NCBI GenBank assembly: GCA_021787845.1 | Contig: JAJYLH010000026.1 | Coordinates: 1 to 64,000 of the forward strand | Source of the DNA: Myxococcales bacterium | GTDB taxonomy: Bacteria > Myxococcota > Myxococcia > Myxococcales > JAJYLH01 | DNA: 64,000 nt | Direction of reading: 5' to 3' | In this document: positions 33,047 to 38,069 of the stretch, piece by piece | Layout: each line of letters begins with the position of its first letter | Numbering within the stretch: position 1 is the stretch's first letter | Program-made: the position numbers and the translations under genes | The notes under the pieces: generated by a model | Seen by the model: only the letters and a program-made list of their open reading frames with translations | Databases searched by the model: none | What the model was told of the DNA's origin: nothing

Positions 33047-33586
33047 CTAAGTGGAGGCGCTGCCGCTCTGCTTCGCGCGCAGGTAGCCGGAGACCCCGTC
33101 GCCGACCGCGAGCAGGTTCGGCTTGAGCGCGGTGATCACGATCCGCTCGATGATCGGTCGCACTGTCCCCGCGAGGAGCCGCGGCACCTTCGTCTTTTCC
33201 AGGTGGAGCACGAGCTCGCCCTTGATTTCCAGCTCCGTCTCGGCGCCCGCCGCGTGGTAGACGTTGTGCCCCCGGCACTCGACCACTCCCGGCATCGCAT
33301 GGGTCTCGATGTGCCAGTCGCAGGTGAAGTCCCCTTCGTCCCAGGTCGCGTAGTCCAGCCACTTGAGCTGCTCCGCCGCGACGAACTTGCGCGCCACCGC
33401 CGGAATCTCGGTCGCCGCGGTCCACTCGTTGAGCAAGTCGGCCCGCGTTCCCTCGTCCGCGCGCTTCTTCACCTCGATGACGCGCACGTTCGGCATGTGC
33501 GGCACGAGCAGGGGCAGGTTGTCGCGCAACGTCCGGAAGACCAGGTCGCGCGCAAAGGGGATGTGTGTCTTCGCCAGGAGCTCCAT
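33047..33586 (-). CDS. SRPBCC-fold protein
   Basis: This 179-residue protein begins MELLAKTHIPFARDLVF and has the alternating strand pattern of START/SRPBCC (Bet v1-like) proteins, with a C-terminal long helix (VRPIIERIVITALKPNLLAVG). Such proteins bind hydrophobic ligands or act as cyclases; nothing here points to one ligand. An earlier ATG at 33670 is possible, but the domain starts at 33586. Confidence 0.72.
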   Translation of the reverse strand: MELLAKTHIPFARDLVFRTLRDNLPLLVPHMPNVRVIEVKKRADEGTRADLLNEWTAATEIPAVARKFVAAEQLKWLDYATWDEGDFTCDWHIETHAMPGVVECRGHNVYHAAGAETELEIKGELVLHLEKTKVPRLLAGTVRPIIERIVITALKPNLLAVGDGVSGYLRAKQSGSAST

Positions 33587-34339
33587 GGCCGGCGAGTCTC
33601 GCACGAGCCGCAGCCGATCGAAAAGCGTTCCGACCGTTCGTCCCCCGAGCCGGACCACTTCACCGCCCAAGCGGCGACCGTCCGCACGGCAAGCGGCTTC
33701 TCCGCCCCGCCTCCCGCAGGGGCAGCGTCCGGCCGCGCTTCTCGCCGAGCGCCCGCGCGCTGGCTCTTCTCGACCTCGCGCAGGGGGGGGGCGGCGTCGG
33801 TGAAGCCATCCGATGCCCGCAAGTGCGTCAACCGGATAGGCATGGATGAAGCTTTCCTCCCGCGCTGCCGGGGGCTCGGGACAGCTCTCCGGCGGCCAGT
33901 GACGAGCGGCCGGGCGAGCCTTCGGATGACGCGGTGCGTCGGGAATTCGGGTGGACGCTCGGCGGCGCGGGCGGTTAGAGTGAGGACCGTACGGGCCGGT
34001 CGCGGCCTCGGGGCTCGTCGCCAGGCGGCGCGTTTCGTGGGTCGGGGCGTCCAGGCTCGGAAGCTTTTCGCACGTCTTTTCGGGTCGGCACGAGCAGGAC
34101 CCTCCTGAGACGGCCTCCCTCGGGCGCGTCGCGGAAGGGCTGTGAACGATCGTGCCAGAAGCTTTCCGTCGCTCTTTGACAGATGGGTCCTAGGAGCCGT
34201 TCCGGCGCCTCTCGAGGCTCGAACCGACCCGAGTCCGCGCGAGGCCCTCATCGCCCTCTTCTCTTTCGGGCGCGGGCTTCGGGCGCGGACGAGAGTCTGT
34301 GAACGGAACCAAGCCCCCAGGACCCCAAAGGACGGCACC
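33587..34339. other. Gap upstream of the RNase E/G gene
   Basis: Open frames here lack motifs and good starts, and I see no gene. A TTGACA at 34176 has no matching -10 box. The region probably holds the RNase leader, which in other bacteria is autoregulatory, but no specific element is recognisable. Confidence 0.5.
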
Positions 34340-36631
34340 ATGTCCAGCATCTTGGTCGTCAACGCTGCCGGGCCGGAGACCCGGGTGGCGCTCGTCGAGA
34401 ACGGAACTATTTCCGAATTCTATCTGGAGCGAAAAAGAGACAAGGGCATCGTCGGGAACATCTACAAGGGCAAGGTCGTGCGCGTGCTGCCGGGGATGCA
34501 GGCGGCGTTCGTCGACATCGGCCTCGAGAAGGCCGCGTTCCTCTACGTCGGCGACGTCGCGGGCGGGCCGGATTTCTCCGAAGAGTTCGAGCTCGCGGAG
34601 ACGCCGGAAGGCGAGCACGGGGAAGCGCCCGCGGGCGAGGTGCCGGCCGAGGACACCGCCGACCAGCCCATCTCGCCTGCGGCCGACGCGGCGGTGACGC
34701 CGAGCGAGAGCGCTGACGATCGGCCGATCGAGACCGCGCCCGTCCCGGACGCGACCGGCGAGGTCGACGCGTTCGCCGGGACCGTTGCCGGTGGGCAGGA
34801 GCGGTCCTCCGAGACCGGTGCCGGAGAGCCAGCCGCGGCAGGCGAGACCGCGGCGTTGTCTCCGGAACCAGCGGACCCACCGGCGTCCGACGAGCCGCCC
34901 GCGTCCGAGCCCTCCGCCGGAGCGAGCGGAGCGGCGCCGTCCGATCCGTCGGATCCATCCGATCCATCCGATCGATCGCCGGGCTCGCCCGTTGACGAGA
35001 CCGCGCCGGTCGATTCTCCCCGCGAGCCCGCCGCGCCGCGCCCGCCTGCCCAGACCGGTCGCCTGCGCGCCAAGTCGCTCGAGCCTCTCGCCCGCCGCCG
35101 CCGCCGGCTCGACGCGCCCCGCGCCAAGACCGTCCGGGTCGAGAAGGGCGCGCAGATTCAGGACCTGCTCCAGGAAGGGCAGGAGGTCATCGTCCAGGTC
35201 GTCAAGGATCCGATCGGCACCAAGGGCGCCCGCGTCACCTGTCACATCTCGCTGCCCGGCCGGCACCTCGTCTTCATGCCGACCGTCGACCACGTCGGCA
35301 TCAGCCGCCGCGTCGACAACGAGAAGGAACGCCGCCGGCTGCGCGAGCTGGTCGAGGGGCTGCGGCCGCCGGGCACCGGGTTCATCGTCCGCACCGTCGC
35401 CGACGGGGTCGAGAAAGACAAGCTCGTCGCCGACATCAAGTTCCTCCTCGGCCTCTGGAACGAGATGGCCCGCCGGAAGGACCAGCTCAGAGCACCGGCG
35501 CTCCTGCACCCCGACCTGGACCTGATCCTCCGGTCGATCCGCGACCTGTTCTCGGCCGAGGTGGAGAAGCTCGTCATCGACGACCGGGCGGAGTTCGAAC
35601 GCATCACCGAGTTCGTCCGGGAGAACGTCCCCCAGCTCGAGCGCGCCATCGAGCTCTACGACGGCAGCGAGCCCATCTTCGACGCCTACGGCATCGAGCA
35701 GGAGCTGCAGCGCGCGCTCCAGCGCAAGGTCTGGCTCAAGAGCGGCGGCTACCTGGTGCTCGACCAGGCCGAGGCGCTGGTCGCGGTCGACGTCAACAGC
35801 GGCCGCTTCGTCGGCAAGAAGAACCTCGAGGAGACGATCACCGCCATCAACATCGAGGCGGCGAAGGAAATCGTCTACCAGCTCCGGCTGCGCAACATCG
35901 GCGGGATCATCATCATCGACTTCATCGACATGGAGAAGCAGCAGAACCGGGACAAGGTCCTGAAAGCGCTCCAGGAGGCCCTGCTCAAGGACCGGGCGAA
36001 GACCAACGTCGTGAAGATCTCCGAGCTCGGCCTGGTCGAGATGACCCGCAAGCGCGTGCGCGAGAGCGTCGGGCGGCTCCTCCACGAGCCCTGCCAGGTC
36101 TGCGAGGGCAAGGGCTTCGTGAAGAGCAAGACCACCGTCGCCTACGAAATCTTCCGGGAAATCCAGCGCGAGGCGACGAGCCGGCGGGAGGACACCCTGG
36201 TCGTCAACTGCCATCCGGAGGTGGCGAAGCTCTTGCAGACCGAGGAGCGCGAGTCGCTGCGCAACCTGATGATGCGCTGGAACCGGACGGTGGTGGTGAA
36301 GCCGGCGCCGGCCTTCCACCTCGAGCACTTCGAGCTTCAGGCCCGCTGGAGCCGGCGCGAGCAGCCGCCGCCCAAGCGCGCGGCCGAGACTCCGAAAGCG
36401 GCGGGCCCGACGCCCGGACCGGCCGTCCCCGCCGGCGCGACGAGCCCAGGCGAGCCGCAAGCGCAGCCGCCGGGCGCCAACGCCGCCGCTCCCACCGAAA
36501 CCGCGCCCGGCGCCACCGCTGCCGCTCCCCAGGGACGCCGCCGCCGGCATCGCCGCCGCGGCCGCGGGTCGGCCGACCAGGCGCCCGCCGCGGAAGGCTC
36601 GGCCGCGCCGGCCAAGCCCGGCGGGCGCTGA
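34340..36631 (+). CDS. Ribonuclease E/G
   Basis: This 763-residue endonuclease processes rRNA and mRNA. The catalytic core keeps the metal-binding Asp residues (VAVDVNSGRFVG and IIIDFIDME) and the CQVC zinc-link motif. The S1 RNA-binding domain at the N-terminus is interrupted: after FLYVGDV (residue about 75) comes an insert of roughly 190 residues, rich in Ala, Pro, Glu and Ser with an acidic first part and an Arg-rich end, before the domain resumes at IQDLLQEGQEVIVQVVKDP. Part of the insert (SDPSDPSDPSDR) is encoded by a CCGATCGGW-like array. A Pro/Ala-rich tail of about 110 residues ends in an RRRRHRRR cluster. Confidence 0.95.
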   Translation: MSSILVVNAAGPETRVALVENGTISEFYLERKRDKGIVGNIYKGKVVRVLPGMQAAFVDIGLEKAAFLYVGDVAGGPDFSEEFELAETPEGEHGEAPAGEVPAEDTADQPISPAADAAVTPSESADDRPIETAPVPDATGEVDAFAGTVAGGQERSSETGAGEPAAAGETAALSPEPADPPASDEPPASEPSAGASGAAPSDPSDPSDPSDRSPGSPVDETAPVDSPREPAAPRPPAQTGRLRAKSLEPLARRRRRLDAPRAKTVRVEKGAQIQDLLQEGQEVIVQVVKDPIGTKGARVTCHISLPGRHLVFMPTVDHVGISRRVDNEKERRRLRELVEGLRPPGTGFIVRTVADGVEKDKLVADIKFLLGLWNEMARRKDQLRAPALLHPDLDLILRSIRDLFSAEVEKLVIDDRAEFERITEFVRENVPQLERAIELYDGSEPIFDAYGIEQELQRALQRKVWLKSGGYLVLDQAEALVAVDVNSGRFVGKKNLEETITAINIEAAKEIVYQLRLRNIGGIIIIDFIDMEKQQNRDKVLKALQEALLKDRAKTNVVKISELGLVEMTRKRVRESVGRLLHEPCQVCEGKGFVKSKTTVAYEIFREIQREATSRREDTLVVNCHPEVAKLLQTEERESLRNLMMRWNRTVVVKPAPAFHLEHFELQARWSRREQPPPKRAAETPKAAGPTPGPAVPAGATSPGEPQAQPPGANAAAPTETAPGATAAAPQGRRRRHRRRGRGSADQAPAAEGSAAPAKPGGR
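34939..34978. repeat. CCGATCGGW-like array inside the RNase E/G gene
   Basis: About four 9-bp units (TCCGATCCG, TCGGATCCA, TCCGATCCA, TCCGATCGA) encode repeated Ser-Asp-Pro/Arg in the S1-domain insert. Confidence 0.8.
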
Positions 36632-36654
36632 CCGGTAGGGCGTGCCTTCGAGCC

Positions 36655-36677
36655 CGGTCGGTCCGATCGGATCGGCG
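36655..36677. repeat. Short CCGATCGGW array
   Basis: GGTCGGTCCGATCGGATCGG, two to three units, lies between the RNase gene and the BrkB gene. Confidence 0.7.
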
Positions 36678-36716
36678 CAGCGCCCGCCGGTCGCTTCGGC
36701 TATCGTGCGTTCTTCG

Positions 36717-38069
36717 ATGTCTGAGCCGAACACGCGCGACGCGCCGGTCGCCCCGGCGACGATGCTCGAGGAGGCGCTGGAGCCCAAGCGCTCCCTTCGC
36801 GAACGGCTGCCGGCGATCGCCCGCAGCGTCCAGGCGGTGCTGGTCGAGGCGACCGGCCTGAAGAGCGAGCCCATCACCGTCCGGGCCGCCGCGCTCACCT
36901 TTCTCACCATCCTCGCCATCGTCCCGCTCCTCGCGGTGGTCTTCAGCCTCTTCCAGGCGATCGTCGGGACCCATGCCCTGCAGAAGGACTTGGAGCGGTT
37001 CGTCCTCGACAACCTCGCGGTCGGCACCCAGGCGAGCTTCCAGCGCTACATCGAGCAAGACATCCGGCGGGCGACCGGCGCGGCGCTGGGCGGCATCGGT
37101 TTCGTCCTCCTTCTCGGCTCTTCGGTTTCGCTCCTGGTCAACATCGAGTCGGCTTTCAACCGCATCTTCCGCTCCGCCAAGCGGCGGCCGTTGGGCCTTC
37201 GGATCGGGGTGTACTGGAGCCTGTTGACCCTGGGGCCGATTCTGCTCTCGGTCTCGCTCGCGCTGACCGCGCTCCTCGGTGCCCGCGCCGGCGGGCCGCT
37301 CAAGCACCTCGCGGGCTACCTGCTACCGCTCCTGGCGACCATCACCGGTTTCACCCTCCTTTACGTCATCCTGCCGACCGCTCAGGTCAAGCGGCGGGCA
37401 GCGCTCCTCGGAGCCATCGTCGCGGGGGTGCTCTGGGAGCTCGCGAAGATCGTCTACGCCACCATCAGCGCCCACTCGGTCCGGCGCGACGCGCTCTACG
37501 GGTCGATCTCGGCGGTGCCGACGTTCCTCCTGTGGACCTACGTGTCGTGGGTGATCGTCCTTTTCGGCGCGCGCATCGCCTACGCGGCGCAGGCGACGGC
37601 GCTGCCTTTGGACCAGGGGATGCCCGCCCCGCTCGCGCGGGAGCTCTTCGTCGCCCGCGTGATGTGCGGCATCGCTCTCGCTTTCCGGCAGGGCAGCCCT
37701 GGTCCCACGGTGGCGAGCCTGGCGGACCATCTCGCGCGCGAGGAGCCTCTGGTCCGCGCGGCGGTGGCGGATTTGACCGCCGCGGGGCTGGTGCGGGAGC
37801 TGGCCGCGGGCGGCTTCGTCCCGGGGCGGCCGCCGTCGAGCATCCGGCTGTCCGACGTGCGGGCGGCCGCACGGGGCGGACTCAGGCAGGCCGCCTCCCT
37901 GGCGGCACCGCTTCCGGCAGACCTCGCCGCTCTCGCTCGGCGTTGGTCCCGAGCCGACGCCGCCGCCGGGGAGCAGCTCGGCGTCACGTTGGACGAATTG
38001 GTGGGCGAGCTGGCGCCTGACGAGGCCGCCACGGCCGTGGGCGCGCTCGGACGTTCGACCAGCGCCTGA
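36717..38069 (+). CDS. YihY/BrkB-family membrane protein with C-terminal winged-helix-like region
   Basis: This 450-residue protein has six hydrophobic segments between residues about 55 and 310 and the family stretches LTFLTILAIVPLLAV and GSISAVPTFLLWTYVSWVIVL. The last 140 residues are cytoplasmic: AREEPLVRAAVADLTAAGLV resembles a winged-helix domain, seen in a subset of YihY proteins. The family was once called RNase BN by mistake; its true function is unclear. The ATG at 36717 is preferred over an upstream start lying in repeat sequence. Confidence 0.88.
   Translation: MSEPNTRDAPVAPATMLEEALEPKRSLRERLPAIARSVQAVLVEATGLKSEPITVRAAALTFLTILAIVPLLAVVFSLFQAIVGTHALQKDLERFVLDNLAVGTQASFQRYIEQDIRRATGAALGGIGFVLLLGSSVSLLVNIESAFNRIFRSAKRRPLGLRIGVYWSLLTLGPILLSVSLALTALLGARAGGPLKHLAGYLLPLLATITGFTLLYVILPTAQVKRRAALLGAIVAGVLWELAKIVYATISAHSVRRDALYGSISAVPTFLLWTYVSWVIVLFGARIAYAAQATALPLDQGMPAPLARELFVARVMCGIALAFRQGSPGPTVASLADHLAREEPLVRAAVADLTAAGLVRELAAGGFVPGRPPSSIRLSDVRAAARGGLRQAASLAAPLPADLAALARRWSRADAAAGEQLGVTLDELVGELAPDEAATAVGALGRSTSA

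Follow-up and report, generated by a model that had tools for sequence, protein, structure and literature searches.

Disordered inserts in the S1 domain of RNase E, at the same site as the one described here, are already known from alphaproteobacteria and plants, and passages of PMC4245959 mention other Gram-negative proteobacteria as well. For such inserts, binding of partners nearby and an effect on RNA binding have been proposed there; that of the Caulobacter enzyme (structure 4OXP) is partly helical and reaches into the putative RNA site, its acidic residues are suggested to be an RNA mimic, Caulobacter RhlB binds an RNase E fragment (1–274) in which the S1 insert is included, and deletion of the Arabidopsis insert lowers activity (PMC4245959). 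At the other end of the Caulobacter protein, the tail carries positive, negative and Arg-rich blocks which, in the parts of PMC10412687 and PMC12691583 that treat RNase E condensates, are proposed to drive condensation through contacts between positive and negative blocks and between Arg-rich blocks and RNA. The literature searched, whose coverage leaves the main RNase E-homologue classification outside, yielded no paper that describes an S1 insert for myxobacteria or for an enzyme of the RNase G type, and none on Myxococcus or myxobacteria with RNase E and the S1 domain, the degradosome, RNA decay or rne. The insertion site is already known; what is new in the locus described below is its RNase G-type host, the lone gene and the Myxococcales context.

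The window protein and its S1 insert

The window (the whole 64,000-nucleotide stretch that was analysed, from Myxococcales assembly GCA_021787845.1, contig JAJYLH010000026.1) carries an RNase E/G-family gene with the following features:

34340..36631, + strand: RNase E/G-family gene, RNase G-type by tree, 763 aa (open reading frame, Pfam, NCBIfam and tree)
34454..34558, + strand: first half of the S1 domain, residues 39–73, with uracil-pocket positions F57 and F67
34559..35149, + strand: S1 insert, residues 74–270 (197 aa), predicted to be disordered over most of its length
34559..34645, + strand: conserved acidic block opening the insert, residues 74–102 (47-sequence alignment)
34646..35059, + strand: variable Pro/Ala/Glu/Ser spacer, residues 103–240
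35060..35149, + strand: Arg-rich basic end of the insert, residues 241–270, RLRAKSLEPLARRRRRLDAPRAKTVRVEKG
35150..35242, + strand: second half of the S1 domain, residues 271–301, with the KGA loop (K295)
35249..36058, + strand: RNase_E_G catalytic region, residues 304–573
36089..36340, + strand: RNase E/G thioredoxin-like domain, residues 584–667
36347..36628, + strand: C-terminal low-confidence tail of about 94 aa with its own Arg-rich run, GRRRRHRRRGRG

The ATG at 34340 is the start of the open reading frame, and the N-terminus it gives, MSSILVVN, aligns with those of relatives. The protein matches PF10150 (RNase E/G) at 358.3 bits (cut-off 25.5), and its top-scoring NCBIfam model is ribonuclease G at 553.8 bits, which is under the equivalog cut-off of 594, as is the score of a plain Geobacter RNase G (586.1). 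Residues D484, N486 and D527 align with E. coli D303, N305 and D346, and these three as well as C585, C588, R351 and T352, likewise aligned to E. coli, are invariant in 47 sequences; passages of PMC6538622 give the E. coli residues D303, N305 and D346 as catalytic and R169 and T170 as 5'-sensor residues. The Zn-link motif, CPxCxGxG in PMC4245959, reads CQVCEGKG in the window protein. By alignment to E. coli RNase E the uracil-pocket residues named in PMC6538622 fall at F57 and F67 before the insert and at K295 after it. The downstream neighbour (36642–38069, + strand) matches BrkB (PF03631), the upstream open reading frame (33047–33670, − strand) has no Pfam match at E 0.001, and no Rfam RNA element was found in the window at gathering scores.

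A sequence-only reading of this DNA had placed a disordered insert in S1 at 34565–35145 (residues 76–269), and the insert was recovered here with boundaries at residues 74–270. The alignment to E. coli RNase E ends at query residue 74 and picks up again at 272, with just residues 75–88 of the E. coli protein between, and the alignment to Caulobacter 4OXP breaks at the same point (query 80, then 266); a phmmer match to Caulobacter extends into the first residues of the insert, PDFS/PDYY. The insert is Pro/Ala/Glu/Ser-rich, as described, and its description as acidic at first and Arg-rich at the end agrees with a net charge of −32 over its first three quarters and +9 over its last quarter. In an AlphaFold model built on the 47-sequence alignment, at least 162 of the 192 residues from 77 to 268 lie in segments with pLDDT below 50. 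The second disordered region that the same reading saw at the C-terminus is matched by the low-confidence tail, where from residue 671 pLDDT block means fall from 63 to 36. Its comparison with E. coli RNase E stands in part: disorder is present here both in S1 and at the C-terminus, but E. coli RNase E is not the closest counterpart, because the window protein is RNase G-type by tree (below). A second AlphaFold model, of relative L042, is poor (pTM 0.34) and again gives the insert mostly pLDDT values below 50; in both models a low-confidence helix is predicted at the acidic block.

When the low-confidence parts are trimmed away, the model matches E. coli S1 structure 1slj with Z 7.0 (76 residues, 3.2 Å, model residues 36–297) and 1smx_B with Z 8.8 (73 residues, 2.4 Å, over a range that extends to residue 397). 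The S1 fold thus appears to be made of its own two flanking halves, since the trimmed model matches E. coli S1 across the insert, and no alternative segment that would finish the fold, which the earlier reading had named as a possible refutation, was seen. Weak zones of the model inside S1 are residues 71–80 (block mean pLDDT 57) and 291–300 (49), and plain Foldseek finds a close match mainly for the first half of the domain (1smx_B, 35 columns at 0.7 Å; 1smx_A, 57 columns at 11 Å). Whole-model Foldseek gives an rmsd above 20 Å for most full-length RNase E matches, which we put down to a domain swing in the model, and per-domain structure matches were used in its place.

The insert across the Myxococcales

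The RNase E/G family is present in 56 of 60 genomes of the order, the window's own included. Named records that match the window protein best come from Myxococcaceae and Anaeromyxobacter, and several of them agree in ORF length and span with loci of the order (L031 with L173 and L055 with L004, for instance). Loop lengths, measured with a profile derived from short RNase G sequences, could be read in 42 of 47 Myxococcales loci (L010, L013, L016 and L030 have no readable first half and L162 has masked bases). Forty of the 42 have an S1 loop of at least 100 residues, so that relatives lacking the insert, which the sequence-only reading had considered, did not turn up; the overall range is 51–475 residues with a median of 235. 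The other two loci, both of family f7, have loops of only about 50–80 residues, and insert length is therefore not essential. The sole genome with a match in the window's class outside the order contributes locus L123, in which the gene is cut by a contig end and some 150 or more residues that run from acidic to Arg-rich precede the second S1 half.

In 38 of the 42 Myxococcales the insert is acidic over its first three quarters and basic over its last quarter, and this order beats 1000 within-insert shuffles at p ≤ 0.01 in 37 of 42; these results are not independent trials, because the sequences are related. The same acidic-then-basic order was scored in the loops of control groups, namely the RNase G-type proteins of other Myxococcota (13/25; p ≤ 0.01 in 5/25), outgroup RNase G-type proteins (8/40; 3/40), named sister MAGs (1/9; 0/9) and RNase E-type proteins (1/22; 0 of the 19 tested). 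The charge order is strongest in the Myxococcales but, because these control groups show it too, is not confined there, and by this sequence comparison it partly predates the insert. Runs rich in Arg/Lys (set in this analysis as at least 7 of 12 residues) occur in 24/42 Myxococcales inserts and 10/42 tails, with one or the other in 27/42 and neither in 15/42.

The acidic block is the most conserved portion of the Myxococcales insert that was aligned. Its order consensus, over the first ~29 insert residues of 47 sequences (43 of the 47 Myxococcales loci plus four named loci), is roughly DP[DE]F..F[DE]LTEGE[HN]..[DE]VP, with D at 95% and P at 100% in the opening pair, E, G and E at 100, 100 and 91%, and V and P at 76 and 91% near the end. 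The window's copy differs from it by an ETP insertion and by Ala in place of Thr. Conservation at this level in these sequences is not explained by low-complexity drift. Over 14 pairs, chosen by eye among close relatives, dN/dS is 0.26–0.60 in the insert versus at most 0.14 in the core, ratios that are rough given the low-complexity alignment, and by these values the insert looks like a fast-evolving yet constrained coding segment. A possible miniature, or minimal form, of the insert, judged by its sequence, is found in L121 (genome G066, family f17), a lone RNase G-type protein which the tree places beside the Myxococcales class with support 87 and whose 53-residue loop is acidic (DDGEDDEGGDDDD) and then Arg-rich (RGRRGRGRNGRDRRGRR).

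RNase E/G gene number, loops and tails

A quick tree with 125 rows puts E. coli Rne together with the second-copy proteins of other Myxococcota, 22 in number (support 100), and E. coli Rng together with the first copies and the Myxococcales (support 100). The branches of both E. coli proteins are long, and long branches can be joined falsely. The 48 Myxococcales rows, in which one gene stands twice (as L112 and L167), form one clade (96). By this tree the window protein is RNase G-type.

All 97 Myxococcales genomes sampled have exactly one PF10150 match. An overlapping sample of 60 genomes of the order gave one match in 55, a full match plus a 42-position fragment in one, and none in four; the single genome of the same class outside the order has one. 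Among 48 Myxococcota genomes outside the window's class, 32 have at least two matches, 10 have one and 6 have none, and two RNase E/G genes are present in each of the nine outgroup genomes examined for this (relatives of Geobacter and Desulfuromonas and one Desulforhabdus). Where two-gene genomes had their copies examined, one is a plain RNase G and the other an RNase E-type protein, the latter usually with a C-terminal scaffold. The second copies of other Myxococcota, which for the 21 two-gene genomes are a subset, have an S1 loop of 7–16 aa and a tail of 58–366 residues that contains an Arg/Lys-rich run in 22 of 22. Outgroup second copies, typed as RNase E by their S1 span of 45–52, their lower profile score and the tail in 8/9 and standing outside the tree, have tails of 252–533 residues with an Arg/Lys-rich run in eight of nine; the ninth, L188, has a 20-residue tail with no such run and no scaffold tail. 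RNase E appears to have been lost from the Myxococcales lineage.

We note that four RNase E-type copies of other Myxococcota (L150, L154, L157 and L177) have C-termini, such as FLSRLFGS and FLGFVKKLFGG, that resemble LLSRFFGALKALFSGG of E. coli RNase E, which we take to be a membrane-targeting helix.

When scaffold-like is taken to mean an S1 loop of 100 residues or longer or a tail of 60 or longer, none of the 30 RNase G-type proteins in two-gene genomes (21 Myxococcota, 9 outgroup) qualifies, and the S1 loop is at most 84 residues in all 30, while all 42 single-gene Myxococcales have a long loop, a long tail or both. The single-gene named MAGs have a long tail in five of nine cases and a long loop in none, and neither is present in four RNase G-type proteins, L121 among them, from other Myxococcota with a single gene, whose loops measure 20–53 and tails 1–6 residues. 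Among the single-gene RNase G-type proteins from MAGs labelled Myxococcales or Proteobacteria, L059, L061, L062, L065 and L071 combine a short S1 loop with an Arg-rich C-terminal tail of about 100–140 residues, which from its sequence could be an alternative route to a scaffold. Relatedness of the sequences inflates these counts, and the correlation between gene loss and scaffold-like sequence goes back to perhaps two or three independent events. A search for further sister-group genomes turned up a single one for the class of G066 and two for the order of G105, of which one has no match; because so few sister-group genomes were found, the order in which RNase E was lost and the insert grew is weakly sampled.

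Other RNA decay enzymes were counted as well. RNase Y exceeds its cut-off in 20 of 146 genomes, the window's own and those of 19 Myxococcota from outside the order; in the remaining 96 genomes of the order any matches are weak and fall below it. The RNase Y of the window's genome lies outside the window (G000:C93:20115-21596, 637.4 bits, over the TIGR03319 cut-off), and may be retained, acquired or a contaminant. RNase J-family proteins score over their cut-off in 47 of 60 genomes of the order. Because RNase J is common in the order and RNase Y is present in the window's genome, the RNase G-type protein need not carry all RNA decay; these profile matches reveal no RNase E/G enzyme beside it in the order, which does have other decay enzymes.

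A proposed scaffold arm and the alternatives to it

We infer, tentatively and from few independent events, that the insert is a disordered scaffold or RNA-capture arm gained after RNase E was lost, a reading that we favour while giving it somewhat less than an even chance. What was observed, and underlies it, is the position of the insert, its disorder prediction, its charge order, its conservation, the RNase G ancestry of the protein and the one gene in the sampled genomes of the order. The arm would be extended from the S1 loop of an RNase G-type enzyme; the acidic block would open it, the variable Pro/Ala/Glu spacer would provide reach, and the Arg-rich stretch would return it into S1 beside the RNA channel. 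After loss of an RNase E with its C-terminal Arg-rich scaffold, the lone RNase G-type protein would have gained scaffold-like sequence in S1 and at its C-terminus, and the Myxococcales arm would stand in for the scaffold of the lost enzyme. Such an arm could capture RNA close to the active site, associate with itself through its oppositely charged parts, as has been proposed for RNase E condensates, and perhaps recruit partners. Against this, a single gene occurs without any scaffold in the four proteins of other Myxococcota, and four of the nine MAGs have no long tail and none a long loop. Also counting against it are the short loops of family f7, the 15 Myxococcales with no Arg/Lys-rich run in insert or tail, the partly older charge order, the RNase E-type copy L188 with its lack of a scaffold tail, the small number of independent events and the presence of other decay enzymes. 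A more ambitious version, which we hold to be somewhat less likely again, is that a degradosome or condensate scaffold was rebuilt inside the S1 domain of RNase G once RNase E was lost, with the acidic-to-arginine disordered arm separating the halves of the uracil-recognition pocket, whereby a single domain would couple the capture of RNA with condensation and cleavage. If the scaffold reading holds, the Myxococcales would offer a natural example of a paralogue that assumed the scaffold role of a lost enzyme by placing disorder within a folded RNA-binding domain; one could then test whether it matters where an RNase carries its scaffold, and Myxococcus, which is genetically tractable, would be given a concrete degradosome hypothesis.

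Two live rivals are not exclusive of the scaffold arm. The stronger of them, which we consider unlikely, is an RNA-mimic gate, in which the acidic block would fold onto the RNA channel of S1 and the 5'-sensor and be displaced by substrate, so that the insert would regulate cleavage and not be a scaffold. Its precedent is the Caulobacter insert, with its reach into the putative RNA site and its suggested RNA mimicry (PMC4245959), and it is consistent with the acidic block being the best conserved part of the aligned insert and with the helix predicted there in both models; however, the block is low-confidence in both, and the long spacer and the Arg-rich end are unexplained by a gate alone.

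Less probable than the gate is a permissive surface loop, grown by slippage in GC-rich DNA and functionally near neutral. The length range of 51–475 residues, many gap columns in the alignment, a dN/dS above that of the core and a short Ser-Asp-Pro repeat within the window's copy are what such a loop might show, and E. coli RNase G manages without the insert; but both the acidic block and the acidic-then-basic charge order persist across the Myxococcales, dN/dS is below 1 in the pairs tested, and the loop at the same place stays at no more than 84 residues in the 30 RNase G-type copies with a second gene. Neutral expansion is less likely because the pattern of charge and acidic block is conserved.

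The second of the two live rivals, in our estimate a little less probable again, is that a DEAD-box helicase or another partner docks on the insert, as has been reported of the N-terminal part of Caulobacter RNase E: RhlB binding to the insert-containing fragment (PMC4245959), the common insertion site and the phmmer match into the first insert residues speak for it, but no partner motif was identified in the insert and past those residues the Caulobacter and window inserts do not align. That an assembly or frame artefact made the insert we regard as ruled out, since the window's frame is open across it and the same layout occurs in many genomes, single-contig ones (e.g. G011, G022, G025 and G034) included, although relative L013, whose first half is out of frame, shows that this GC-rich gene is not free of local errors.

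Compared with known systems, the scaffold arm proposed here has its nearest likeness in the inserts of alphaproteobacterial and plant RNase E, which share the S1 site, charge, predicted disorder and variable length; those, however, are given in passages of PMC4245959 as about 50–150 aa and belong to RNase E, whereas the Myxococcales insert reaches 475 aa in an RNase G-type host, runs from acidic to Arg-rich and has a lineage-specific acidic block. The Caulobacter and window inserts show no alignment beyond the few starting residues PDFS/PDYY. E. coli RNase G (Rng) lies on the same side of the tree as the window protein, for which ribonuclease G is the best NCBIfam model, but it has no long loop or tail (S1 span 50, tail 1). 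The C-terminal scaffolds of RNase E in E. coli, other Myxococcota and Geobacter relatives are, as here, low-complexity, charged and furnished with Arg/Lys-rich runs; they sit after the catalytic domain, whereas the main scaffold-like segment of the Myxococcales protein is inside S1 and a shorter tail is C-terminal. RNase E that forms BR-bodies likewise has opposite-charge and Arg-rich blocks in a disordered region, a likeness which in the window protein is one of sequence pattern.
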